Source: Roseivirga sp.
GTDB taxonomy: Bacteria; Bacteroidota; Bacteroidia; Cytophagales; Cyclobacteriaceae
Reading direction: 5' to 3'
Assembly (NCBI GenBank): GCA_029262895.1
Contig: JAJCYM010000070.1
Location: forward strand, 1-64,000
DNA: 64,000 bases
Part shown: piece by piece, positions 26,375 to 36,368 of the stretch
How positions within the stretch are numbered: position 1 is the first letter of the stretch
How the letters are laid out: every line of letters starts with the position of its first letter
Program-made: the position numbers and the translations under genes
The notes under the pieces: generated by a model
The model's input: the letters and a program-made list of their open reading frames with translations, nothing else
What the model was told of the DNA's origin: nothing
The model's database searches: none

Positions 26375-29300
26375 CTATTCTACCTTCACAGGTAAAGCAT
26401 CTTTGGGAGAGACACCAAATTTTTCCTGAAAACACTTTGAGAAATAGGGGGGACTGCTGAATCCGACAGCATAGGCCACCTCGGTCACATTGCCGGCACC
26501 ATTTTCAAGAAGTTGCCTGGCTGTTTTTAGTCGGATTGAACGAACAAAGCCCGTGGTAGACTGATTAGTTAGGGCCTTAAGTTTACGGTGCAATTGTGTT
26601 CTGCTCATGCCCATCTCCTGACAAAAAGCCTCAACATCAAAATCGGGATCGTCAAGGAATTTTTCAACTACGTCTTTCGCTTTGCTTAAATAAACGTGCT
26701 CCTTGCTCTCAATAAGTGTGGAATCTTCAGAATCACTTTCCGTTCCAAGGCGTTGGTATTTTTCCTGGAGCAATTTTCTGGTCTCTAGTAACTTTCTGAT
26801 CCTGAGCAGCAATTCATCACGATTGAAAGGTTTGGTCAAATAAGCATCGGCACCTTCTTCCAGACCTTGCAAGCGACTCTCTGTAGTTGATTTTGCAGTT
26901 AGCATAATCACAGGAATATGACTGGTAAGCTCATTTCCTTTAACATGTTGGCAGAATTCATAACCATCCATTTCAGGCATCATCACATCGGTGATGATCA
27001 GGTCTGGAATATGATTTCGTGCCTGATCGAGTCCGGTTTGGCCGTTGGTTGCTTCAATAACTGTGTAAAGTGGATGGAGTTGACTTTTGACAAAATCCCG
27101 CAATTCGGCATGGTCTTCAACCAAAAGAACCAGGTCCCGATTGTCTCCTTCTATAGGCTCGTAGTTATCTGGTTCAGTGGAATCATAGACAATTTCTTCG
27201 GGAGAACTGTTCGTGACCCCATCAAGAGATACTCGTTTAGGTTCCGATTTCTCAAGAAGTTGAAAGGGTAGGTGAAGGATAAACTTGCTACCTTCTTTTT
27301 CCTTACTCTTGACTTGAATAGTGCCTCCCATCAACTGAGCCAACTCTTTTGACAAGGCAAGTCCGATACCCGTACCCGCAGTATGGCGTTCTTGTGTACT
27401 TTTAGCCTGATAGAAGCGATCAAAGATATTTGGTAAATCTTCTTCCGAAATTCCCGGGCCGGTATCCGTAACCATCACACTCACCCATGGATCGGGTTCC
27501 TCAAGAACGGCAGAAGTCTTGACTAGTACAGTACCGCCCCTTTGGGTAAATTTCAGGGCATTGGACAAAAGATTGCGTATGATCTTTTCGAGTTTTTCGG
27601 AATCAAAGTCGGAATCCGGAACGGATGAGGCAGAGTCAAAAGACAATTGAATTTGACGATGTTGAGCCAGTTGGTTAAAACTCAGGGTAATATCCTGGAT
27701 GAATGAATTGATATTACCACGGCTCAATTCTAAGGGCATGCGCTCGTTTTCCAACTTGCTGATGTCAAGCAATTGATTAATCAAACCGAGTAGATGTTTT
27801 GATTGTCGTTGAATCGACTCTAATGAAGCGCGGGTTTTGTCTTCAGCATTTTGGCGCAGTAATTCTTCGACCGGCCCCAAAATCAGGGTGAGTGGCGTTC
27901 TGAACTCGTGCGTAATATTGGAGAAAAATCGATTTTTGGCATCTTCCAAGGCTCTTAGACTTTCAGCCGTTTGTTGTTCAAGAAGCAGTTGGTTTCTGAG
28001 CCGAACTCTGCGCATCTGAATAACAATGATAACAGCAACGATAGCTATGATAAGGAGCAAGTAAATACCATATGCCCACCATGTTTGCCACCAGGGAGGA
28101 GTGATAATTATCTTTACAGAAGCGCCTTGCTCATTCCAAAGACCATCGTTGTTGGTGCCTTTTACCGTGAAGGTGTAGGTCCCTGGATCGAGATTAGTAA
28201 AGTTGGCCAATCGGCTATTCTCTGCCTGAATCCACTGATCACTGAGTCCCTTCATTTGATAAGCGTATTGGTTTTTGCCCGGGTTGACGTAGTCCAGCGC
28301 GGCATAAACAAAGCTGATCATGTTTTGCTCATGGCTCAAATGGATTTCGGTGGTGGCATTGATCGATTTTGTAAGGACTGACGCAGAATCCAGATGAGAA
28401 ATAGGTTGATTGCCAATCCTAAATTCGGTGATAGCGATTGTAGGTATCTGTGGGTTGTCCACGATCTCTTCCGGGTAAAAGGCATTGATGCCATTAACTC
28501 CTGCGAAAAACAACTCTCCATTTGCACTTTTGAAATAGGCCATGCGATTGAACTCGTTGTTTTGCAGTCCGTCTGCCTTGTCAAAAATCCTGATGGCCCT
28601 TGTTTGAGTATTGAAACGAACCAACCCTCTATTGGTACTCATCCATAGGTTACCATTGTCATCAGATAAAATCCCATAGATTGTATTATCAGGAAGCCCA
28701 TGTTCGGTTGTAAAGCGCTCGCTTTCACCTGTGACTTTGTTCATTAAATTAAGTCCTCCTCCCTCTGTCCCAACCCATAAGAACTTGCTCGGATTGGTTG
28801 GATCATCTAAAACGGAGAGTATCCGGTCTCCACTAAGACTTTTTGGGTTTTGAGGATCGTTTCGAAAGGTCTCAATCTTCTCATCGGCTTCATTGAACTT
28901 GATTAAACCTTGTTGAGTACCCATCCATAAATGGCCGTTGGCGCCATGCTTCAGAATGAAATTGAAAGTTCCTACCGGGTTGGCAGCAACATTAGGATCA
29001 TAGGAGAAACTCCTAAAACTGGAATTGTTTGGGTCAAACCGGTGAAGGGTACCTTGACTTCCCCACCATAAGATGCCTGTGATGTCAGCATAGATTGGAC
29101 CGTTCGGTGTGGCTGCTTTCTCATAATTAAAAAATCGCTCTTGATTAGTTTCCAAATTGTAACCCCAGAGTTGACCTTTTTCTGGCATGGCCCAAAATAC
29201 TCCGCTACGGTCAACAGTGGCATACCTGAAACCATCAAGCCTCTTGGCTATTAGGTCAGGTTTGTTCCGTTCTCCGGTTTTTCGGTCTACGATTTTATTA

Positions 29301-30475
29301 TCTGCCCAAAGTCTGCCTTTATGGTCTTCATGCACGTGATTGATATAAGCTTGCGGCTGGTCGGTGAACATGCCTAGTAAGGGGCTGAATTGATTTACGC
29401 TTGGCGAAAACTTATATAATCCTCTGGAGGTTCTGCCCATCCAAACCACATTGGACTGGTCGACCAAAACCGCGTTGATAGCTTTTACTGATGCTTCGGG
29501 TATGGCATTAAGTGTGGAAACACTGTCTTTGTCAACCACGTATAGTCCACGACCCCAGCGATCCACAAACCAAAACCTTCCTTGTCTGTCAAGACTCAGC
29601 TGTTCCACCCAAACCTGTTTGGGATGATGAGATGTAGGAGGCCTACCTCCCCATTCGTGAGTTTTTGTGTTAAAGGTTTGTATAGTGCCTGCACGCCCAA
29701 GCCACAATAGATCGCCTTCCTCGAAAATGGAGAACACACCCGAATGCGGCATTTCCTGGTCAGCCAAATAATCGTTATGTAAAGTAAATTCCAGTTTCAG
29801 CGTATTGAGATTCGTTGAGTAAAGTCCCAGCGTAGTGCCTACCCACATACGGTTCTGTTGATCAATATGAATGTCAAAGACATCGTTATGCTGTGGAAAC
29901 GAATCGGGGTCTAATTGATAGGGTGTTAGGCTGAACTTTGTTTGTTCATCTTCTTGGAGTTTACTGGAATCCCATTCGAGTTTGAACAGGCCGTAGGATG
30001 AGATCGGTGTTTGACCTCCAATCCACATATTGCCGCTGGCATCTTTAAGGAATTGCCAGACATGTAAATCTGCTAGTTCACTATAAGCGGAATCTGTGGC
30101 TTCTATTTTGTAGATCCGTTCGGTCTGGCGATCGAGCACGTTAATGCCTTGTCCCCAGGTGCCGATCCAGATTAACCCTTCACTATCTTCATAAAGGGCT
30201 GAAATATTGTTTCCAGAAAGAGAATTGGACTTGCCAGGTTGATGTTGGTATACCTTAAAATCATAACCATCATAACGATTTAATCCCCCAAGGGTACCAA
30301 ACCACATAAATCCCTCACTGTCCTGTAATATGCAAGAAATATAGCCCTGGGACAGGCCATCATCGATGGTGACTTCTTCGAGTTGAGAAGAGCTTGGAAT
30401 TTGAGCTTGCAGCAAGGAGGGTACTAGCAATAATGCTATCCAGATGAGGATATATCTACTTCTGCATGGTTTCAT
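26375..30475 (-). CDS. Hybrid two-component system sensor kinase/response regulator/AraC regulator
   Basis: A 1366-residue one-protein signalling system. Order: signal peptide (1-24); periplasmic two-component-regulator propeller repeats (about 30-690, many W-x-G-T motifs); Y_Y_Y domain (about 710-795); one transmembrane helix (about 800-820); HisKA with phospho-acceptor His near 857 (SNITHEFRTPLTLILGP); HATPase; receiver domain with Asp near 1163 (IITDVMMPEMDG); C-terminal AraC helix-turn-helix (AYAVGFSSPPYFSKCFQEKFG). In Bacteroidetes such proteins usually sense carbohydrate fragments. No glycan locus is adjacent here; the nearest target is the cupin operon downstream. Confidence 0.93.
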   Translation of the reverse strand: MKPCRSRYILIWIALLLVPSLLQAQIPSSSQLEEVTIDDGLSQGYISCILQDSEGFMWFGTLGGLNRYDGYDFKVYQHQPGKSNSLSGNNISALYEDSEGLIWIGTWGQGINVLDRQTERIYKIEATDSAYSELADLHVWQFLKDASGNMWIGGQTPISSYGLFKLEWDSSKLQEDEQTKFSLTPYQLDPDSFPQHNDVFDIHIDQQNRMWVGTTLGLYSTNLNTLKLEFTLHNDYLADQEMPHSGVFSIFEEGDLLWLGRAGTIQTFNTKTHEWGGRPPTSHHPKQVWVEQLSLDRQGRFWFVDRWGRGLYVVDKDSVSTLNAIPEASVKAINAVLVDQSNVVWMGRTSRGLYKFSPSVNQFSPLLGMFTDQPQAYINHVHEDHKGRLWADNKIVDRKTGERNKPDLIAKRLDGFRYATVDRSGVFWAMPEKGQLWGYNLETNQERFFNYEKAATPNGPIYADITGILWWGSQGTLHRFDPNNSSFRSFSYDPNVAANPVGTFNFILKHGANGHLWMGTQQGLIKFNEADEKIETFRNDPQNPKSLSGDRILSVLDDPTNPSKFLWVGTEGGGLNLMNKVTGESERFTTEHGLPDNTIYGILSDDNGNLWMSTNRGLVRFNTQTRAIRIFDKADGLQNNEFNRMAYFKSANGELFFAGVNGINAFYPEEIVDNPQIPTIAITEFRIGNQPISHLDSASVLTKSINATTEIHLSHEQNMISFVYAALDYVNPGKNQYAYQMKGLSDQWIQAENSRLANFTNLDPGTYTFTVKGTNNDGLWNEQGASVKIIITPPWWQTWWAYGIYLLLIIAIVAVIIVIQMRRVRLRNQLLLEQQTAESLRALEDAKNRFFSNITHEFRTPLTLILGPVEELLRQNAEDKTRASLESIQRQSKHLLGLINQLLDISKLENERMPLELSRGNINSFIQDITLSFNQLAQHRQIQLSFDSASSVPDSDFDSEKLEKIIRNLLSNALKFTQRGGTVLVKTSAVLEEPDPWVSVMVTDTGPGISEEDLPNIFDRFYQAKSTQERHTAGTGIGLALSKELAQLMGGTIQVKSKEKEGSKFILHLPFQLLEKSEPKRVSLDGVTNSSPEEIVYDSTEPDNYEPIEGDNRDLVLLVEDHAELRDFVKSQLHPLYTVIEATNGQTGLDQARNHIPDLIITDVMMPEMDGYEFCQHVKGNELTSHIPVIMLTAKSTTESRLQGLEEGADAYLTKPFNRDELLLRIRKLLETRKLLQEKYQRLGTESDSEDSTLIESKEHVYLSKAKDVVEKFLDDPDFDVEAFCQEMGMSRTQLHRKLKALTNQSTTGFVRSIRLKTARQLLENGAGNVTEVAYAVGFSSPPYFSKCFQEKFGVSPKDALPVKVE

Positions 30476-30584
30476 AACAGGTCGAGGTATCGGAAAATGA
30501 CTGATTCACAGCTGTCCTCCTTAAGTAAGTTACAAATAATGGGGGTCTCTAGAAATAGCCGGTCTTTAAGCCGACAAAATGAAA

Positions 30585-30611
30585 GGGCGGTCTCGATAGT
30601 TGAAACCGCCC
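30585..30611 (-). terminator. Terminator of the rtcB operon
   Basis: GGGCGGT (30585-30591) pairs with ACCGCCC (30605-30611), followed on the minus strand by TTTCATTTTG. It lies 15 nt beyond the rtcB stop. Confidence 0.75.
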
Positions 30612-30626
30612 TGACTTAATCTAAGT

Positions 30627-32060
30627 TTATTCACCATTTTCAAAACCTCCTCTGGTTTTAGGTCCTCCAGCCATCCTGACAATTTTAGGATGGAAGCTTC
30701 CAAGAACATCTACCAGATCAGTCTGGTGACCCATCACTTTGTGAATGTCTTTATAGACCTGAGGTGCCTCATCCAAACCAGACCCCAGTAAAGTGATGCC
30801 AGCTTTTTTAATGTGCTTCGTCACTTCCTTTTTCGATAAGGTTTGCTTCGCTTTGGTTCTGGACATCAGTCTTCCGGCTCCATGAGAAGCTGAATTGATG
30901 GATTCATCCTGCCCTTTTCCCTGAACAATAAATCCAGGGGAGGTCATTGATCCGGGAATAATACCCAGGACACCTTGGCCAGCCGGAGTGGCACCTTTTC
31001 TATGGACAATAATCTCATTTCCATCCGCATCTTGCTCTTTCCAGGCAAAGTTGTGATGGTTTTCGATCATTGCCAGTGGATTTTCACCTAGGGCATTTGC
31101 CAATCGTTCATGAATCTGGTGGTGACATGCCGAGGCATAATCACCCGCAAGGTTCATGGCCAGCCAATACTCCTGACCGGCCTCTGATGCAAGATCGAGC
31201 CATGCAAGATGTTTGGCTTCTCCCGGTAACTTGCACATATCCATGGCCAACTTGGTGTAATGTCTCGCGATATTAGCACCAAGCCCCCTAGATCCCGAGT
31301 GGGAGAGTACCGATAAGTATTTGCCAACAGGCAGTCCTGTATTGCCTTCTTCATCAGTGATTTCCGTGATTCCGAATTCCACAAAATGATTTCCACCTCC
31401 TGAAGACCCTATTTGACTCCAAGCCCTGTCTTTCAATGATTTCACAATATTGATCTCATTGAACAATGGGCTATCAAGCACCTCATGATCCTTCGGACGT
31501 ACGAACGCATTCTGACCGAACTTTGTATTGTTCAAAAGCATATCGGTCAACGTCTCGGTGCTTTGATGAACAAAAGCCGGAGGAATGTCATAAATGGTCA
31601 TGCACATTCTACAGCCAATGTCTACCCCAACACCATAGGGTATTACCGCATTCTCGGTAGCCAAAACTCCACCTATAGGTAATCCATACCCCTGGTGAGC
31701 ATCGGGCATCAATGCGCCTGCTTTTGCTACTGGAAGTTTCATTGCCACTTCCATCTGGTTGATAGCACCAGGTTCAATGCCTTCTCCTCCATAAATGGCA
31801 TAGGGCACCTTTCGATGATTGAGTTCCAGCGTTTTGTTATGATCCTTTTTAATGATCAAACTCATCGCCACAGCACCAAGCGTTTCATGCTTGACATAAA
31901 ACGCAGGATTTTCAACCACTCGTTTAAGTAGCGCTTTCTTATGTAATATGGACTTTCCTTTGAAATGCTGTTCCATTGCCCGAATCGCTTCGCCAACGGC
32001 TCTTCCTTCGGGGAATCCCAGCTTTCTCAAATCCTTTCCTGTCAACTTTTTCGTTGCCAT
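30627..32060 (-). CDS. rtcB: RtcB family RNA-splicing ligase
   Basis: A 477-residue GTP- and Mn2+-dependent RNA ligase that joins 2',3'-cyclic-phosphate (or 3'-phosphate) and 5'-hydroxyl ends. Visible motifs: VDIGCRM with metal-binding C150; GGGNHFVEFG; HSGSRGLG; and the guanylylated histidine H393 in ASHGAGRLMSR. All key residues are present, so it should be active. It is the last gene of a five-gene minus-strand operon headed by a slipin and preceded by a tRNA array. No rtcA or RtcR-type sigma54 regulator is seen. The context suggests repair of cleaved tRNA. Confidence 0.95.
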   Translation of the reverse strand: MATKKLTGKDLRKLGFPEGRAVGEAIRAMEQHFKGKSILHKKALLKRVVENPAFYVKHETLGAVAMSLIIKKDHNKTLELNHRKVPYAIYGGEGIEPGAINQMEVAMKLPVAKAGALMPDAHQGYGLPIGGVLATENAVIPYGVGVDIGCRMCMTIYDIPPAFVHQSTETLTDMLLNNTKFGQNAFVRPKDHEVLDSPLFNEINIVKSLKDRAWSQIGSSGGGNHFVEFGITEITDEEGNTGLPVGKYLSVLSHSGSRGLGANIARHYTKLAMDMCKLPGEAKHLAWLDLASEAGQEYWLAMNLAGDYASACHHQIHERLANALGENPLAMIENHHNFAWKEQDADGNEIIVHRKGATPAGQGVLGIIPGSMTSPGFIVQGKGQDESINSASHGAGRLMSRTKAKQTLSKKEVTKHIKKAGITLLGSGLDEAPQVYKDIHKVMGHQTDLVDVLGSFHPKIVRMAGGPKTRGGFENGE

Positions 32061-32085
32061 GATTTCTAAATATCAATAATTAAAA

Positions 32086-32313
32086 TTAGGTAGCACGCAC
32101 AAAAGTGCCATCGTCAAGTGCTTTCCTGATATACCTCATCATAATGATGGCCTTGTCCTTATTCAAGAATGTAGCATCACCAATATCAGTGGTGGGTACC
32201 GGAAAGCTATAATCGCCCTCTGCGACTGAAACATTATAGTACAGATGTCCTGCACGATAATGTGAAAATTGTACTTGATTATTTTTTACGATGTCTTTTA
32301 ATGTCAAATTCAT
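32086..32313 (-). CDS. Small protein of the rtcB operon, unknown
   Basis: A 75-residue protein (MNLTLKDIVKNNQVQFSHYR... KAIIMMRYIRKALDDGTFV) with no recognised family. It has beta-rich N-terminal and helical C-terminal parts and no membrane segment. It lies 25 bp upstream of rtcB and 66 bp after the TPR gene, so it is co-transcribed. It may be an accessory factor for the ligase; that is inference from position only. Confidence 0.75.
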   Translation of the reverse strand: MNLTLKDIVKNNQVQFSHYRAGHLYYNVSVAEGDYSFPVPTTDIGDATFLNKDKAIIMMRYIRKALDDGTFVRAT

Positions 32314-32379
32314 ATTTGAAAAGGCCTTCCTGACTTTAAGGGGTAGGAAGGGCTTAATGCTCCCCGCTGTAAAAAGGCA

Positions 32380-32907
32380 CTACTGCTTTTTGGAAGTAGA
32401 TTTCTTTTTATTCAGCTTTCTCAACTTGTATTTAATTCTCTTGATGTGATCCTTGAGCTCATCGGTCTCATAATTATTTTGAGATTCCATAAGTGCTTTT
32501 TTGAACAACCGGATGGCCTTTTTATACGTCTTTTCTCTTTCCGCAACTCTGCCAAGATTTCCGAAGACAAAGGCCTTGTTTAATTCTTCTACTTGTTGAG
32601 CCTTGCTCATCCAATAGAAGATACCCTTGTCTTTTTTATGCTCTCGATAAAGCTGTATCAGGTATTCATATGCTTCCTTATACTTAGGATCAAAGCGTAT
32701 TGCCAGCTGGTAATGTCGCTCTGCCCTTTCCAGGTTGTTCATATGACAATGGTATAGCTCACCCATTTTTGCATGCAGCTTTGCATATCCGGGTTCTTGG
32801 GCCAGTCCACTATCTAGTAGCCTTCTGGCTTCTTGATAATGGCCATCATCCATGGCTTCCTCTGCCAACAGGATCACATTTTCGATATATGCTTCGTAAA
32901 TGTCCAT
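32380..32907 (-). CDS. TPR protein of the rtcB operon
   Basis: The start is taken at MDIYEAYIENVILLAEEAMDD; the frame extends 13 codons further but without coding character. The 175-residue product has three to four TPR units (YQEARRLLDSGLAQEPGYAKL; NLERAERHYQLAIRFDPKY; KTYKKAIRLFKKALMES, each in part) and a lysine-rich tail, which might contact RNA. It is probably a scaffold within the RNA-repair complex. Confidence 0.75.
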   Translation of the reverse strand: MDIYEAYIENVILLAEEAMDDGHYQEARRLLDSGLAQEPGYAKLHAKMGELYHCHMNNLERAERHYQLAIRFDPKYKEAYEYLIQLYREHKKDKGIFYWMSKAQQVEELNKAFVFGNLGRVAEREKTYKKAIRLFKKALMESQNNYETDELKDHIKRIKYKLRKLNKKKSTSKKQ

Positions 32908-32957
32908 TGTTTTAAAATTTAGAGTGACCGAAACCCCAAATCTCAAGACTCGGACAC

Positions 32958-33470
32958 TCAGTTTTTATTCCACTTTTTCTTCACTTTCATAAGTTGTCCA
33001 CTTTTAGGATGTACATAGAATCGTGGATAGTAATAAGAGATTAACTCTTGCCGCTGTCCCCAACGTCCATGTCCGATTATCTTTCCGCTTTCAATGGTGA
33101 CTGTGGTTTCCACAAAATCATCCAAATGATCGAAAAGATGTTGACCCAATAGCGTCTTCTTATCCATCTTTTGACAGAGCTCGGCATAAACTTTATTCCA
33201 GAATTTACCCTGGTGCTTTTCCAAGAAGCGAATCAAGGGCTTGAGATTGTCAGTCTGCATTTTGGTACCTCCGCTTCTGATTTTTATAGACTCTTTGTTC
33301 ATGGCACCTTCAAAATCCTTTTCCTTCAGATTCTTGTCATAGCCCTTCCTTTTATTGCCGGTCCAATAACCACCATTGCGGTAACACTCAATCAATTCCT
33401 CTCCCATGCGCTTATCTCTTCGCTTTTGTCGCTTGCGTAAAGACGGCTTTAGTGTATCAGAATTTTCCAT
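32958..33470 (-). CDS. Basic protein of the rtcB operon, unknown
   Basis: A 170-residue strongly basic protein (LRKRQKRRDKRMGEELIECYRNGGYW at the N-terminus, in part; VKKKWNKN at the end). The middle part KFWNKVYAELCQKMDKKTLLGQHLFDHLDDFV looks helical, then a tryptophan/tyrosine-rich end (GHGRWGQRQELISYYYPRFYVHP). Charge and context favour RNA or ribonucleoprotein binding. I do not recognise the family. It is preceded by a 10-bp-stem hairpin at 33486-33509. Confidence 0.7.
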   Translation of the reverse strand: MENSDTLKPSLRKRQKRRDKRMGEELIECYRNGGYWTGNKRKGYDKNLKEKDFEGAMNKESIKIRSGGTKMQTDNLKPLIRFLEKHQGKFWNKVYAELCQKMDKKTLLGQHLFDHLDDFVETTVTIESGKIIGHGRWGQRQELISYYYPRFYVHPKSGQLMKVKKKWNKN

Positions 33471-33485
33471 TTGTTTCTATTTAAT

Positions 33486-33509
33486 GGTCATGGGCCAGAG
33501 CCCATGACC
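33486..33509 (-). other. Perfect intercistronic hairpin
   Basis: GGTCATGGGC-CAGA-GCCCATGACC is a perfect 10-bp stem with a 4-nt loop between the slipin stop and the next gene. It lacks a U-tract, so mRNA processing or partial attenuation is more likely than termination. Confidence 0.6.
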
Positions 33510-33511
33510 GG

Positions 33512-34612
33512 TTACTTAAATCCGGAGAACACCTCCTTCAATTGTTCCAATACCTGGTTACCACCTGATAGAGAAATAGTGTTGATCTTATCCGCAATCT
33601 TCTCCACATATTCCATCTCCTTGAGCTTGAACAACATCTCGTTATCCTCCATCAATTTTGCGGTGTTCAACAAGCTTCTTGTAGAAGCTGTTTCCTCCCT
33701 TCGGGTGATTACATTGGCTTGAGCCTGCTTTTGAGCTACCAATACCTGGTTCATGATGTCTTTAACTTCACCGGGCAGAATGATGTCCTTGACGCCACAA
33801 TCCCTGATCTCAATTCCCAGATTATCAGCTTTGCTCTTAAGTTCTGCTTTCACGTAATCCGCAATCGCAGCTTTTTGCTCAAGCAATTCATCCAAGCTGT
33901 ATTTACCGATGAATTCCCTCAATGCCAGTTGCATTAGTACGTACAGTTGCCTTTCGAAGTCCTTATTCTCGACCAGGGCTTTGACAATGTCAATCACCTT
34001 GTATTGGCCGTAGAAGTTGATCCTTAGAGCAGCTTTGTCGTTGGTCAGAATTTCCTGACCAGAAACTTCCAACTGTACTTGCCTCATGTCTACTTTCAAG
34101 AGATTCAAAACCACTTCATTTTTCCAGAAGTAGTATTCTCCTGAATTCAGCATTCTATTGAATTCACCGTTTACAAAGAGTACTGCTTTTTCATAGGTTT
34201 CCACTTTGCAAACCCTGACGTAAGGCACTAGTTCTCTTCGTTTTCTAACTACCAGATCAACATCCTCTGTGATTTCAATCTTGCTCAAATCCGCTTTCAC
34301 AAATTTGTAATCGATTAAATCCTTCCAGAAGGCATAGCGACCTGGTGACAAGACCTTACTAAAATTGCCATTCTCATATTGCATGACTATTTCATTGTCT
34401 TGTACCTCTACCACTTCGAGCAAATCGGCTAGCTTATGATCTTTCAAAAGCATATTCAATTCTCTTGATGGGTAGAATTCCTTGGTCTGGTCGTATTCGA
34501 TTACTTCATCGAAAAGAGATACCCAGTAAGTACCTGCGGTAATCACAGTTTTGTAATCACCTTTCCTGAAAACCAAACCCACTTTTCCTTCGTTGATTCG
34601 TATCCTTTTCAT
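33512..34612 (-). CDS. Slipin family (SPFH/band 7) protein
   Basis: The start is taken at MKRIRINEGKVGLVFRKGDY; 15 upstream codons are also open. The 366-residue product is an SPFH/band-7 protein of the slipin type found beside RtcB: N-terminal YKTVITAGTYWVSLFDEV-like repeats, then the SPFH core (LTNDKAALRINFYGQYKVIDIV) and a coiled coil (LKSKADNLGIEIRDCGVKDIILP; TRREETASTRSLLNTAKLM, in part). There is no clear N-terminal membrane helix, unlike classic slipins, so it may form a soluble ring. It is the first protein gene of the RNA-repair operon. Confidence 0.85.
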   Translation of the reverse strand: MKRIRINEGKVGLVFRKGDYKTVITAGTYWVSLFDEVIEYDQTKEFYPSRELNMLLKDHKLADLLEVVEVQDNEIVMQYENGNFSKVLSPGRYAFWKDLIDYKFVKADLSKIEITEDVDLVVRKRRELVPYVRVCKVETYEKAVLFVNGEFNRMLNSGEYYFWKNEVVLNLLKVDMRQVQLEVSGQEILTNDKAALRINFYGQYKVIDIVKALVENKDFERQLYVLMQLALREFIGKYSLDELLEQKAAIADYVKAELKSKADNLGIEIRDCGVKDIILPGEVKDIMNQVLVAQKQAQANVITRREETASTRSLLNTAKLMEDNEMLFKLKEMEYVEKIADKINTISLSGGNQVLEQLKEVFSGFK

Positions 34613-34698
34613 TTTTCTAACATTTGTGAGCGACTTCGTTTTTAGTTTTGAAATCACATCGTATTCAACATTTATTTACCATTATTGGCCAAATAATT

Positions 34699-34912
34699 TC
34701 ATTTAAAAGGAAGGGGGTAGACAAACCATTTTTCCGAGACGGAACTCCCATTGAGCCCGATTAAAACCTTGAGTTCATCGTTGGAGAAGATGACCGACAA
34801 GATCCATAATGGGTCTTGAGAACCACCTTTCCTCGGGCAAAGTCAAAGACCGCTTCAGACGGTATCCTGATTGCTCAAGTCTTTTCAAAATGTTCCTGAT
34901 CTATTCGTCCAT
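34699..34912 (-). pseudogene. Remnant of a ~70-residue protein gene between tRNA array and slipin
   Basis: An ATG at 34910-34912 opens MDE, then a TAG, then IRNILKRLEQSGYRLKRSL. A shift of frame near 34840 leads to GGSQDPLWILSVIFSNDELK and LNGSSVSEKWFVYPLPFK, ending at TGA 34699-34701. Both segments look protein-like. One stop plus one frameshift suggests a decayed small gene. An alternative is structured leader RNA. Confidence 0.4.
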
Positions 34913-34969
34913 CAAATCAAGATTTGATTTTTGATTAGGTCAGGGGTTTGTCTAAACACCCCTTCCAGG

Positions 34970-35050
34970 TGTCGATCGTTTTTAGAGAAGTCGATCACTT
35001 CTTAACCTACATTAATAGTGTAGTGCTCTAGCCATCTGAGCTACATCAAC
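34970..35050 (-). ncRNA. Degenerate tRNA-like element (anticodon-like ATT)
   Basis: The D-arm is canonical (TAGCTCAGATGGCTAGAGC). The anticodon arm is perfect: CTACA-CTATTAA-TGTAG, giving ATT (Asn AAU). The T-arm stem AGAAG/CTTCT is kept, but its loop is TGATCGA instead of TTCGANN. Six acceptor pairs (GTTGAT/ATCGAC) can form only if about nine extra bases are looped out. It is probably not a working tRNA; it is the element nearest to the slipin gene. Confidence 0.45.
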
Positions 35051-35067
35051 CAGCCGATTCTACTCGG

Positions 35068-35139
35068 AGTTGAAGGCGGGAGTCGAACCCGCGTATCCAT
35101 AAAGAGCTTGTTACTCTTACCTAACTGAGTTACCCCTTT
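35068..35139 (-). ncRNA. Degenerate tRNA-like element (anticodon-like CTT)
   Basis: The D-arm TAACTCAGTTAGGTAAGAG and the T-arm GCGGG-TTCGACT-CCCGC are good. The anticodon stem does not pair properly around CTCTTTA, and the acceptor strands (AAAGGGG and CTTCAAC) do not match. A tRNA-like fold with broken acceptor and anticodon arms remains. Confidence 0.45.
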
Positions 35140-35230
35140 CGGGAGAAGGATTCGAACCTTCGTCTACAAGCGATGTGGGAATCATCATGAAGCAGCATAC
35201 CTAAATCCATGGGATTAAGGCACTATGGGG
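35137..35230 (-). ncRNA. Degenerate tRNA-like element, long form
   Basis: The T-arm GAAGG-TTCGAAT-CCTTC is perfect, and a D-like arm GCCT/AGGT is present. The anticodon region is unclear (CTTCATG with no stem, or TGATG-ATTCCCA-CATCG, which would read TCC), and the acceptor does not close. Just upstream, CATCAGGT-N5-ACCTGATG (35246-35266) is a perfect hairpin. A CGGGA there could pair with the 3' TCCCG, giving a ~140-nt element. Confidence 0.4.
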
Positions 35231-35274
35231 CTTTTCAGAAACCCTCATCAGGTCTTCTACCTGATGGTATCCCG

Positions 35275-35357
35275 TGTCCCAGGTAGGATTCGAACCTACA
35301 TTCCAAAGTGGAGGCAGTTTCTAAAACTGCTGTGTATCCCAATTCCACCACTAGGAC
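35275..35357 (-). tRNA. tRNA-Leu(TAG)
   Basis: An 83-nt class II tRNA. The acceptor GTCCTAG/CTGGGAC pairs fully (one G-T), followed by discriminator A. The Leu-type D-arm is GTG-GAATTGGGATA-CAC. The anticodon arm is GCAGT-TTTAGAA-ACTGC, anticodon TAG. There is a short variable arm, and the T-arm is GTAGG-TTCGAAT-CCTAC. CCA is not encoded. It looks functional. It lies 5 nt after tRNA-Asn. Confidence 0.8.
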
Positions 35358-35362
35358 ATATG

Positions 35363-35434
35363 CGGAAACAGCTGGATTCGAACCAACAACCTTCTCCTTA
35401 ACAAGGAGCCGCTCTACCATTGAGCTACATTTCC
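35363..35434 (-). tRNA. tRNA-Asn(GTT)
   Basis: A 72-nt cloverleaf: acceptor GGAAATG/TGTTTCC (two G-T pairs), D-arm GCTC-AATGGTA-GAGC, anticodon loop TTGTTAA (GTT) on a 4-bp stem, T-arm GTTGG-TTCGAAT-CCAGC, and discriminator G as expected for Asn. The sequence seems diverged from a typical Bacteroidetes housekeeping tRNA-Asn, and it lies in an array. Confidence 0.8.
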
Positions 35435-35640
35435 AAAAAGGTCATTCCTCCATCTGAGGGCTGTTAACCATTCTTTTGTCAGAATGACCTGCTATTTGTT
35501 TTGGAGCTTTTACCAACATCACAGCCCAAACGAAAGACTGCTTAGGGGCTTTAACCCTTCCCCAAATTGAGGAGACACTCGTTTTGCCTCTCCTTTAGCT
35601 TCTTTTCAAGCCGATTATTGGCTTGGATTGGAGGATATCC
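35435..35640 (-). other. Spacer in the tRNA array, hairpin-rich
   Basis: I see no tRNA and no gene here. It holds hairpins: AGGTCATTC...GAATGACCTTTTT (35440-35490, terminator-like on the minus strand), AGGAGA...TCTCCT near 35570-35595, and CAAGCC-N7-GGCTTG (35608-35626). GAGGATATCCTC lies at its left end in map coordinates of 35631-35642. Decayed tRNAs or dispersed hairpin repeats are both possible. Confidence 0.45.
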
Positions 35641-35650
35641 TCTAAATCGA

Positions 35651-35737
35651 TTTCCATATCGAACCTGCCTTTGCCGGCAGGCAGGCCCTCGACCTCATCA
35701 TAGACAGTGATGTATTCTACCCCTGAACTACAGTACC
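35651..35737 (-). tRNA. tRNA-Asp(GTC)-like, 3' half disrupted
   Basis: The 5' half is good: D-arm TAGTTCAGGGGTAGAAT and a perfect anticodon arm CATCA-CTGTCTA-TGATG (GTC, Asp). After ...GAGGG a 22-nt hairpin (35664-35685) is inserted directly before TTCGATA. The 3' T-stem and acceptor strand (expected CAGTACC) are not recognisable. It is probably a dead tRNA gene. Confidence 0.55.
35664..35685 (-). repeat. 22-nt hairpin insertion in tRNA-Asp-like T-arm
   Basis: On the minus strand CCTGCCT and AGGCAGG flank the loop GCCGGCAA. It lies between the T-stem and TTCGA. The copy at 35841-35862 differs by one base and occupies the same structural position in tRNA-Gln. Confidence 0.8.
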
Positions 35738-35742
35738 CTATG

Positions 35743-35816
35743 TTGGCTCACCAGGGCTTGAACCTGGAACCTCCAGCTTATAAGACTGGCACTCTAACCA
35801 ATTGAGCTATAAGCCA
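35743..35816 (-). tRNA. tRNA-Ile(TAT)
   Basis: A 74-nt complete cloverleaf: acceptor TGGCTTA/TGAGCCA, D-arm GCTC-AATTGGTTA-GAGT, anticodon arm CCAGT-CTTATAA-GCTGG with anticodon TAT, T-arm CCAGG-TTCAAGC-CCTGG, and discriminator A. TAT reads AUA directly; most bacteria instead use a CAT tRNA modified by TilS. It lies 4 nt after tRNA-Gln. Confidence 0.8.
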
Positions 35817-35820
35817 ATAG

Positions 35821-35913
35821 AAGCCAGAACAGGATTCGAACCTGCCTTTGCTGGCAGGCAGGCCTGTACTTCCGGGGCCAAATCCCGATGTCTTACCGTT
35901 AGACGATCCGGCT
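35821..35913 (-). tRNA. tRNA-Gln(TTG) with a 22-nt insertion in the T-arm
   Basis: Without the insertion it is a complete 71-nt tRNA: acceptor AGCCGGA/TCTGGCT, D-arm GTCT-AACGGTA-AGAC, anticodon arm TCGGG-ATTTGGC-CCCGG (TTG), T-stem ACAGG/CCTGT and loop TTCGAAT. A 22-nt hairpin is inserted between ACAGG and TTCGAAT. The discriminator appears to be T rather than the usual G. Function depends on whether the insertion is tolerated or removed. Confidence 0.65.
35841..35862 (-). repeat. 22-nt hairpin insertion in tRNA-Gln T-arm
   Basis: CCTGCCT-GCCAGCAA-AGGCAGG on the minus strand in three parts. It is nearly identical to 35664-35685, and CAGG is present on both sides of the insertion. It belongs to the TGCCGGCAGGCAGG-type dispersed hairpins of Bacteroidetes. 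Confidence 0.8.
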
Positions 35914-35953
35914 TTGAGTCCAAAGAGAGTTTAACCCCTCCGGTCTTTGACCA

Positions 35954-35971
35954 CCTCCCCTCAAGGGGAGG
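35954..35971. repeat. CCTCCCC-TCAA-GGGGAGG hairpin
   Basis: A 7-bp perfect stem with a 4-nt loop, followed on the minus strand by GGTCAAAGACCGGAGGGGTT. This is a known type of Bacteroidetes dispersed repeat, here just upstream of the tRNA array. Confidence 0.6.
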
Positions 35972-35976
35972 ACAAC

Positions 35977-36008
35977 AAAAAAGCCCGACCTTAAGAGGCC
36001 GGGCTTTT
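35977..36008 (-). terminator. Intrinsic terminator 2 upstream of the tRNA array
   Basis: The stem AGCCCGGCCT / AGGTCGGGCT on the minus strand (one G-T), a 4-nt loop, then TTTTTT. It points toward the array, so it either ends the upstream short transcript or attenuates read-through. It can also act on the plus strand (GGCTTTTAG). Confidence 0.75.
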
Positions 36009-36030
36009 AGTACCTGATACACTTCTTATA

Positions 36031-36150
36031 TCAAGTCATATTCCTCCTGACCTTTTGCAAAAGACAATCTTCACCTGTTCCAAAACCTGAGTAATTCAGA
36101 CTTTGAATTAGCAAACCTGCTATGCGTAATTGTTTCATTTCCTTTTGCAT
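36031..36150 (-). CDS. Possible 39-residue small ORF between terminators
   Basis: ATG CAA AAG GAA ATG ... ACT TGA encodes MQKEMKQLRIAGLLIQSLNY followed by a short polar tail. Its ribosome-binding site is weak. It lies between the two terminators and could be a leader peptide, a small protein or chance. An AGGAGG followed by ATG-ACT-TGA lies at its end. Confidence 0.25.
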   Translation of the reverse strand: MQKEMKQLRIAGLLIQSLNYSGFGTGEDCLLQKVRRNMT

Positions 36151-36171
36151 AATTTTATCTTTTTTTAAAAC

Positions 36172-36199
36172 AAAAAACCCGAACCAAATGGCCCGGGTT
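36172..36199 (-). terminator. Intrinsic terminator 1 upstream of the tRNA array
   Basis: On the minus strand AACCCGGGCC-ATTT-GGTTCGGGTT (10 pairs, two G-T) is followed by TTTTTTG. It lies about 150 nt after the predicted transcription start near 36329. Confidence 0.75.
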
Positions 36200-36222
36200 T
36201 CTAAGTGTCTTTTATCTCTAAT

Positions 36223-36318
36223 TCAACTTATAATTCCGAGCCGAAAAACATTACGATCAAACCCACTAATTTTAGCGAGCAGTATGGCTAATTGTATATG
36301 TGAATAATTACTTTTCAT
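36223..36318 (-). CDS. Possible 31-residue leader ORF
   Basis: ATG AAA AGT AAT TAT ... ATA AGT TGA encodes MKSNYSHIQLAILLAKISGF plus eleven residues, rich in Ile and Leu. It starts only about 11 nt after the predicted start of transcription and ends 24 nt before terminator 1, the layout of an attenuation leader. The coding status is not proven. Confidence 0.3.
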   Translation of the reverse strand: MKSNYSHIQLAILLAKISGFDRNVFRLGIIS

Positions 36319-36335
36319 TTCTTTTTTCGATGTCA

Positions 36336-36368
36336 CAAATGTACCGAAATACATTTCGCATTTGCAAA
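36336..36368 (-). promoter_or_regulatory. Bacteroidetes-type promoter upstream of leader/tRNA array
   Basis: On the minus strand TTTG (36365-36368), 21 bp, TACATTTG (36336-36343) is a full match to the -33/-7 consensus TTTG / TAnnTTTG. From 36369 to 36742 I see only AT-rich sequence without a gene. Confidence 0.6.

Follow-up and report, generated by a model that had tools for sequence, protein, structure and literature searches.

Why should a row of tRNA genes stand directly before an RNA ligase operon? The question is raised by a 64,000-nucleotide (nt) stretch of DNA from Roseivirga sp. (Bacteroidota; GenBank assembly GCA_029262895.1, contig JAJCYM010000070.1, positions 1 to 64,000 of the forward strand), called the window below, in which the genes for a slipin and the RNA ligase RtcB follow a cluster of tRNAs on the minus strand. 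Read 5' to 3', the unit consists of a probable promoter, two predicted leader-peptide attenuators, the tRNA array, a structured RNA, the genes for slipin, a basic protein, a TPR protein, a 75-amino-acid (aa) protein and RtcB, and a terminator. We read it, with somewhat more confidence than doubt, as a translation-stress operon that answers the loss of usable tRNAs: stalling in the leader peptides would let transcription read through to spare tRNAs, slipin, a tRNA mimic and RtcB.

Linkage of the tRNA array to slipin and RtcB

A search of 99 genomes returned a slipin match in 40, of which 24 were close (E ≤1.2e-107, the window's own genome included), and a scan of named genomes supplied the best 80 of at least 532 relatives, loci on short contigs included. 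Among the named loci with a full 5 kb of flank, tRNAs lay within 5 kb upstream on the slipin strand in 46 of 64, on the other strand in 1 of 64, and downstream in 3 of 65. Across all 80, slipin-strand tRNA density peaked 1–2 kb upstream, and the 4 kb adjoining slipin gave no tRNA call on the other strand; the association of array and slipin therefore exceeds chance, a comparison that the original prediction had asked for. Twelve of the 24 close loci fall among the 19 genomes of the window's genus, and two of the 24 run into a contig end; ARAGORN called upstream tRNAs on the slipin strand in 14, and at least two loci that lack an ARAGORN call (L012 and L014) have Rfam tRNA matches upstream. rtcB was found in 18 of the 24. 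Six distant Band_7 loci had no tRNA within their 1.5-kb flanks.

The best 80 named loci are nearly all from Bacteroidota, the exceptions being metagenome bins labelled Thalassobius, Rickettsiales and Chlorobiota, and the largest arrays belong to Flavobacteriaceae: Dokdonia (L158, 18 tRNAs), Aquimarina (L125 and L147) and Zobellia (L120). Isotypes vary between species. By number of loci, Tyr (29) leads, followed by Asp and Gln (21 each), Lys (20), Phe (19), Arg (17), Leu (16), Glu and Ser (14 each), Cys (13), His (12) and Pro (11), with Asn (6), Ile (5), Trp (4), Gly and Val (3 each), Met (2), Thr (1) and Ala (0) rarer. On the slipin strand, rtcB lies within 3 kb downstream of slipin in 40 of the 80 and upstream in 12, so that the pairing presumed to recur in bacteria was seen in 52 loci and went unmatched in 28. 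Two loci (L166 and L174) have additional tRNAs 1–3 kb downstream of slipin. An Escherichia coli plasmid (L249) encodes a 37% identical slipin followed by a nucleotidyltransferase gene; one T-loop motif lies upstream, no tRNA was called there and no RtcB match was found within the 4-kb flanks. It is possibly a relative of the slipin system without an adjoining RtcB.

The protein-coding part of the window's unit, and its probable end, are as follows.
33512..34657, minus strand: slipin (SPFH/Band_7; Pfam Band_7, 3.6e-34)
32958..33470, minus strand: basic protein, 170 aa (open reading frame (ORF); homologues at the same position in 3 of the 23 other loci searched)
32380..32946, minus strand: TPR protein (Pfam; comparison of loci)
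32086..32313, minus strand: 75-aa protein (ORF; present in 3 of the 23 other loci searched)
30627..32060, minus strand: RtcB RNA ligase (Pfam RtcB, 1.6e-79)
30584..30612, minus strand: terminator-like site 3' of rtcB, probable end of the unit (terminator scan)

That these five genes form a single minus-strand run, as first proposed, is borne out by the ORFs and, for slipin, TPR and RtcB, by Pfam. Neither the basic protein of 170 aa nor the 75-aa protein matched a family in Pfam (E 0.001), NCBIfam (E 1) or PADLOC (E 0.01), and a PADLOC search of all five proteins matched no anti-phage system. No rtcA was noticed by eye among the ORFs of the unit. Directly 3' of rtcB on the same strand lies a gene for a 1366-aa hybrid two-component regulator (26375–30475), which had no close match at that position in the other 23 loci searched.

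Leader peptides, terminators and a divergent regulator

How might such a unit be controlled? Upstream of the array, two short ORFs are each followed by an intrinsic terminator.
36336..36343, minus strand: probable promoter −7 element TACATTTG, separated from leader peptide 1 by 17 nt (sequence and position)
36223..36318, minus strand: leader peptide 1, MKSNYSHIQLAILLAKISGFDRNVFRLGIIS (ORF; similar peptides in other loci)
36236..36242, minus strand: predicted antiterminator GGCTCGG at the end of leader peptide 1, with complementarity to the 5' arm of terminator 1 (by eye)
36172..36200, minus strand: intrinsic terminator 1 (terminator scan)
36031..36150, minus strand: leader peptide 2, MQKEMKQLRIAGLLIQSLNYSGFGTGEDCLLQKVRRNMT (ORF)
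36046..36052, minus strand: predicted antiterminator GGTCAGG at the end of leader peptide 2, with complementarity at most positions to the 5' arm of terminator 2 (by eye)
35977..36007, minus strand: intrinsic terminator 2 (terminator scan)

The likely promoter and both leader-peptide/terminator pairs sit inside the interval first flagged (30627–36368) and went unremarked at that time. The −7 element is of the Bacteroidetes TAnnTTTG type, which lies outside the coverage of the sigma-70-type promoter scan. Terminator-like sites on the minus strand have 13 and 13 pairs just upstream of the array and 11 after rtcB, all others having at most 7.

The two ORFs of the window stop 45 and 48 nt ahead of the terminator T-runs. 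In the 80 named loci, an ORF of at least 19 codons ended 40–70 nt before the T-run at 96 of 129 upstream sense terminators, compared to 16 of 91, 14 of 101 and 14 of 79 terminators in three controls. Pairing with the terminator 5' arm was also stronger for the tails of these ORFs (mean −10.7 kcal/mol) than for their heads (−4.7) or shuffled tails (−6.4), and 63 of 97 tails outdid 95 or more of their 100 shuffles, a rank of 5 or better; this test covered 97 attenuators of the named loci outside the window, the pairing in the window itself being judged by eye. Loci with at least two leader peptides average 6.2 array tRNAs and those with none 0.7. Where rtcB lies upstream of slipin and apart from it (12 loci), two leader peptides were found within 700 nt before rtcB in five (L120, L129, L137, L142 and L160). 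By eye, neither leader peptide shows a stretch of a single regulatory codon. The idea that leader peptides match the array isotypes exactly was dropped, the correlation being suggestive but not significant.

Ribosome-mediated attenuators of the trp and his type combine a leader peptide, an overlapping antiterminator and an intrinsic terminator at a set spacing. The arrangement here is alike in all three respects and differs in that two such devices stand in tandem, ahead of tRNAs and a repair operon rather than of amino-acid biosynthesis genes. The two leader-peptide/terminator attenuators upstream of the array are the likely sensor.

A second kind of regulator is found at many loci. A WYL regulator is encoded within 5 kb upstream in 28 of the 80 named loci, in each case on the strand opposite to slipin (two of the proteins were examined with Pfam). 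Among loci with 5 kb of upstream sequence, a divergent WYL gene accompanied 16 of the 19 that lack a leader peptide, 6 of the 14 that have one and 2 of the 31 that have at least two (none versus at least two, Fisher 2.5e-8, relatedness ignored). As WYL genes are frequent where leader peptides are absent, one kind of regulator seems to stand in for the other ahead of the slipin unit. The divergent regulators (L037, L102, L107 and others) have WYL and WCX domains; the L107 protein carries a fused PhyH-type dioxygenase domain, the L133 protein does not, and further ones seem fused judging by length.

Array tRNAs and the permuted RNA beside slipin

What would read-through deliver? The tRNA and tRNA-like genes of the window's array are listed first.
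35820..35913, minus strand: tRNA-Gln(TTG), with a palindromic insert at about 35841–35862 in the variable region (ARAGORN, Rfam)
35742..35816, minus strand: tRNA-Ile(TAT) (ARAGORN, Rfam)
35655..35739, minus strand: broken Asp-like tRNA with anticodon loop CTGTCTA and U37, interrupted by a second copy of the insert at about 35664–35685 (by eye)
35362..35434, minus strand: tRNA-Asn(GTT) (ARAGORN, Rfam)
35274..35357, minus strand: tRNA-Leu(TAG) (ARAGORN, Rfam)

Scanning of the array region with ARAGORN and Rfam gave the same four tRNAs on the slipin strand, in agreement with the four intact cloverleafs, one with an inserted hairpin (in tRNA-Gln), that had been read from the letters; Rfam adds a marginal match at 34977–35050 (29.7 bits; cut-off 29), and neither program called the broken Asp-like tRNA. 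The earlier count of eight tRNA or tRNA-like elements holds for these four, and the rest appear to correspond to the broken Asp-like tRNA, two permuted modules described below and an anticodon-like arm with a predicted pseudoknot, so that the total depends on the counting. The palindromic repeat, CCTGCCTGCC...GGCAGG, occurs in two copies (35841–35862 and 35664–35685), both within tRNA or tRNA-like sequence. Similar inserts are present in the arrays of relatives (L033, L036 and L038), and the insert looks like a mobile palindrome that tolerates tRNA genes.

Are these the cell's ordinary tRNAs? Markedly different copies of Asn, Gln and Leu(TAG) exist elsewhere in the window's genome; Ile(TAT) had no second copy among the tRNAs fetched from that genome. 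In Zobellia, whose genome gave 52 tRNA matches, all 13 ARAGORN-typed array tRNAs have chromosomal cognates, and the best alignment score per length of the array tRNAs to any chromosomal tRNA, roughly an identity, is 0.54–0.77. A housekeeping array is thus ruled out for Asn, Gln and Leu(TAG) here and for the 13 typed tRNAs of Zobellia.

The array tRNAs also differ in kind. Position 37 is U in 33 of 278 distinct array tRNAs and in 0 of 84 housekeeping tRNAs (Fisher 1.4e-4; related arrays are not independent). Array Leu tRNAs are 73–78 nt long and lack the long variable arm in 27 of 29 cases, whereas housekeeping Leu tRNAs measure 82–85 nt in 9 of 9. The housekeeping set was drawn from two genomes, with Asp added from relatives (13 distinct sequences, all A37). 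Most array tRNAs keep the T-loop motif (271 of 278), the GG of the D-loop region (273 of 278) and T33 (273 of 278).

These features bear on the idea that the array tRNAs are sacrificial decoys, which would absorb tRNases and be cut and religated by RtcB again and again, sparing the housekeeping tRNAs. Several of them do seem poor for translation (Leu without the long arm, Gln with its insert, the broken Asp-like tRNA). A decoy should copy the site that is cut, though, and the Asp and Glu arrays instead change position 37, more like evasion; the retention of the canonical tRNA motifs likewise speaks against decoys, which we consider improbable. Still less credible, and in our judgement close to negligible, is an ordinary tRNA cluster or mobile-DNA landing site that adjoins slipin–RtcB by coincidence. 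tRNA genes are common integration sites, and the palindromic inserts and the fast change of isotypes between species would suit such an origin. It sits poorly with the same strand and place in 46 of 64 loci from several families, with array tRNAs that are extra rather than housekeeping copies, and with the shared attenuators.

Conserved and structured elements were found on the same strand among and after these tRNAs.
35440..35600, minus strand: conserved element A (AGCTAAAGGAGAGGCARAACGRGTGTCTCCT...; strict motif in 6 of 80 named loci and 0 in control, by eye in further relatives)
35162..35272, minus strand: conserved element B, 5' part of the tRNA-mimic RNA (in relatives GGTATAAGACCTGATGAGGG..AGCCCCATAGTG..GGTATGCTGCTT; by eye)
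35113..35161, minus strand: permuted tRNA module 1, with T-arm, closed acceptor-like hairpin and D-arm (pairing scan, swap tests; YrlA match below threshold)
35025..35092, minus strand: permuted tRNA module 2 (pairing scan, swap tests)
34973..35002, minus strand: predicted H-type pseudoknot AGAAGT-GATCG-ACTTCT-CTAAAAA-CGATC, with an anticodon-like arm (frame search)

The order of the modules, T-arm, closed acceptor-like hairpin and D-arm, is that of a circularly permuted tRNA, and the arms of YrlA are permuted likewise. A scan demanding pairing detected the module in 66 of the 80 loci, once or more in the 950 nt ahead of slipin; control sequence gave 3 matches in 749 kb downstream (both strands) and 0 in 358 kb of upstream antisense, and a few extra matches were junctions between tandem tRNAs. 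With T-loop motifs as the sole anchor, two motifs 45–110 nt apart were present in 74 of 91 loci, 68 of these being non-redundant. Their T-arms were fully paired in 68 of 68 and 66 of 68, compared to swapped means of 28% and 38%, and the closed hairpin (run of 5) formed in 40 of 68 and 45 of 68, compared to 34% and 31%; each exceeded all 200 swaps, the hairpin result being significant without being clean, perhaps owing to the fixed search window. Of the 80 named loci, 31 contain the pseudoknot frame, and a second stem 4 bp or longer can form in every one of these 31, against a mean of 14.5 and a maximum of 23 of 31 for swapped partners, a count that favours the observed value as the best-pairing frame was retained per locus. 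Swap tests were used in place of a covariance model because the 3' RNA aligned poorly in a multiple alignment (mean identity 40%, with at least two intervals, L003 and L012, out of register).

At gathering level, Rfam reported tRNA as the only known family in the leader; at relaxed thresholds YrlA appeared below its cut-off, along with other families taken as chance. All 15 loci scanned gave a YrlA match at E 10, and 10 of them did so at E 0.01, with a best score of 45.5 bits against a gathering score of 69; the match in the window's genome reached 27.0 bits, below threshold. A hammerhead ribozyme considered for element B (CUGAUGAG) was dropped by eye, its core being a misfit. By eye, the tRNA-like elements before slipin–RtcB in Photobacterium and Burkholderia stand in the normal, unpermuted order. 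The RNA on the slipin side appears to consist of permuted, Y-RNA-like tRNA mimics, which would suit a scaffold, decoy or adaptor. Reserve tRNAs, decoys and sensor RNAs had all been proposed for the array as a whole; the divergent but mostly canonical-looking tRNAs fit the first, the mimics fit a scaffold, decoy or adaptor, and the sensing role would probably pass to the attenuators.

A translation-stress reading and the systems it resembles

How would these parts work together? During normal growth, ribosomes would complete both leader peptides and cover their 3' ends, and the two terminators would halt transcription. When decoding fails, for example through cut tRNAs, a ribosome would stall within a leader peptide, leaving the 3' end of that peptide's sequence to pair with the 5' arm of the terminator, and the polymerase would continue. 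Read-through would yield spare tRNAs unlike the housekeeping set, elsewhere often with altered anticodon loops, which may be charged, resist cutting and replace tRNAs that have been cut. It would also yield the two permuted Y-RNA-like mimics and the predicted pseudoknot, which probably tether or guide tRNA substrates to slipin and may bind RtcB, together with slipin and RtcB themselves, the latter of which would rejoin cut tRNA. A more specific version is more tentative, and we give it somewhat less than an even chance: the tandem leader peptides would report decoding, and its failure would release nuclease-hardened tRNAs, with changed anticodon loops and a short Leu, alongside slipin, mimic and RtcB, so that a second set of tRNAs is swapped in while the first is mended.

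Several observations weigh against the translation-stress reading. The sequence shows the layout, its recurrence and the leader-peptide geometry; attenuation, charging and repair are inferred from these. The window's own array is small and partly decayed, with its broken Asp-like tRNA and inserts, and its four called tRNAs include no U37 and no short Leu. U37 occurs mainly in Asp (18 of 20) and Glu (11 of 14), related arrays are non-independent, and few housekeeping tRNAs stand on the other side of the comparison (two sequences for Glu); array Leu tRNAs without the long arm suggest that some array tRNAs may be non-working. As 14–18% of control terminators also have a preceding ORF, some of the listed leader peptides are false; 34 of 97 ORF tails miss the pairing rank, and the composition of leader peptides correlates with array isotypes at a Spearman coefficient of only 0.42 (p 0.068, not significant). 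In three (L137, L142 and L160) of the 31 loci with at least two leader peptides, these occur only before the upstream rtcB. ARAGORN called no upstream tRNA in 18 of 64 loci, and the pairing scan found two permuted modules in only 32 of 80. Finally, rtcB went unmatched near slipin on its strand in 6 of the 24 close loci and in the 28 named loci counted above, some of these loci being cut by contig ends, and many rtcB matches are distant (28–38% identical).

Parts of the unit have known counterparts. Burroughs and Aravind reportedly described, in NAR in 2016, SPFH/Band-7 repair modules with a tRNA-like non-coding RNA. Such a module has slipin/Band-7, RtcB and an adjoining tRNA-like RNA, as do the window and its relatives; the Bacteroidota loci also have permuted modules with a predicted pseudoknot, real tRNAs in an array of variable content, and attenuators in tandem, none of which is known to belong to the modules reported there. 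Slipin–RtcB with tRNA-like RNA has probably been described, and the suggestion that the layout was novel survives in narrower form: the tRNA array with tandem attenuators beside slipin–RtcB looks like a new variant, no description of that combination having been met in the limited literature searched.

The Salmonella rsr-yrlBA-rtcBA operon likewise joins RtcB to a tRNA-mimicking Y-type RNA and a role in tRNA damage, and this RtcR-controlled RNA repair operon is activated by tRNA fragments (PMC7790460). Here, slipin takes the place of TROVE/Ro60, real tRNAs are present, and control would fall to attenuators, as in the Roseivirga loci, or to a WYL regulator. Neither TROVE/Ro60 nor RtcR had a match in the window's genome (the RtcR control search was positive in E. 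coli), which rules out the Ro60/Y-RNA and RtcR systems as such. A Photobacterium relative has a divergent RtcR beside slipin–RtcB.

A further parallel is Anabaena, in which rtcB, a slipin gene and an operon of 26 tRNAs share TrcR as their repressor, the tRNA operon is switched on by translation-targeting antibiotics and its deletion reportedly lowers resistance, and an earlier study found rtcB and the slipin gene also raised under chloramphenicol (PMC10272220). An extra-tRNA array, rtcB and a slipin gene are under common control in both; the Anabaena genes are dispersed and governed by a ribbon-helix-helix repressor, whereas those described here are clustered behind predicted leader-peptide attenuators. 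The Anabaena data raise the alternative that the signal sensed is a ribosome-targeting antibiotic and not cut tRNA: ribosomes with bound drug would stall in the leader peptides, and the tRNAs and RtcB would ease slow or error-prone translation. Drug-sensing leader-peptide attenuators are described in other bacteria. We regard antibiotic sensing as unlikely all the same, since RtcB, the permuted tRNA mimics and the many isotypes of the array suggest tRNA as the object, no efflux or ribosome-protection gene was recognised among the five genes of the unit, and the Salmonella operon answers tRNA fragments.

Extra-tRNA clusters are also found as mycobacterial tRNA array units and in phages, where changes in the anticodon loop have been proposed as tRNase evasion (PMC5966550, PMC12803027 and PMC10264068). 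A dense cluster of extra tRNAs, the mark of a tRNA array unit, is present in Zobellia; the window's array, with four called, is small. In contrast to the mycobacterial and phage clusters, the array here adjoins an RNA ligase operon, and the slipin had no match in a phage collection at E 1e-10.

The translation-stress reading links three questions: the purpose of extra-tRNA clusters in bacteria, the role of slipin beside RtcB, and the sensing of cut tRNA without RtcR. On this reading, sensing of the damage, supply of replacement tRNAs and production of the repair enzyme should all rest with a single transcript, and the leader peptides would offer a direct reporter for the inducing signal. With two predicted switches guarding the operon, the layout suggests a route by which cells may sense and survive tRNA damage.

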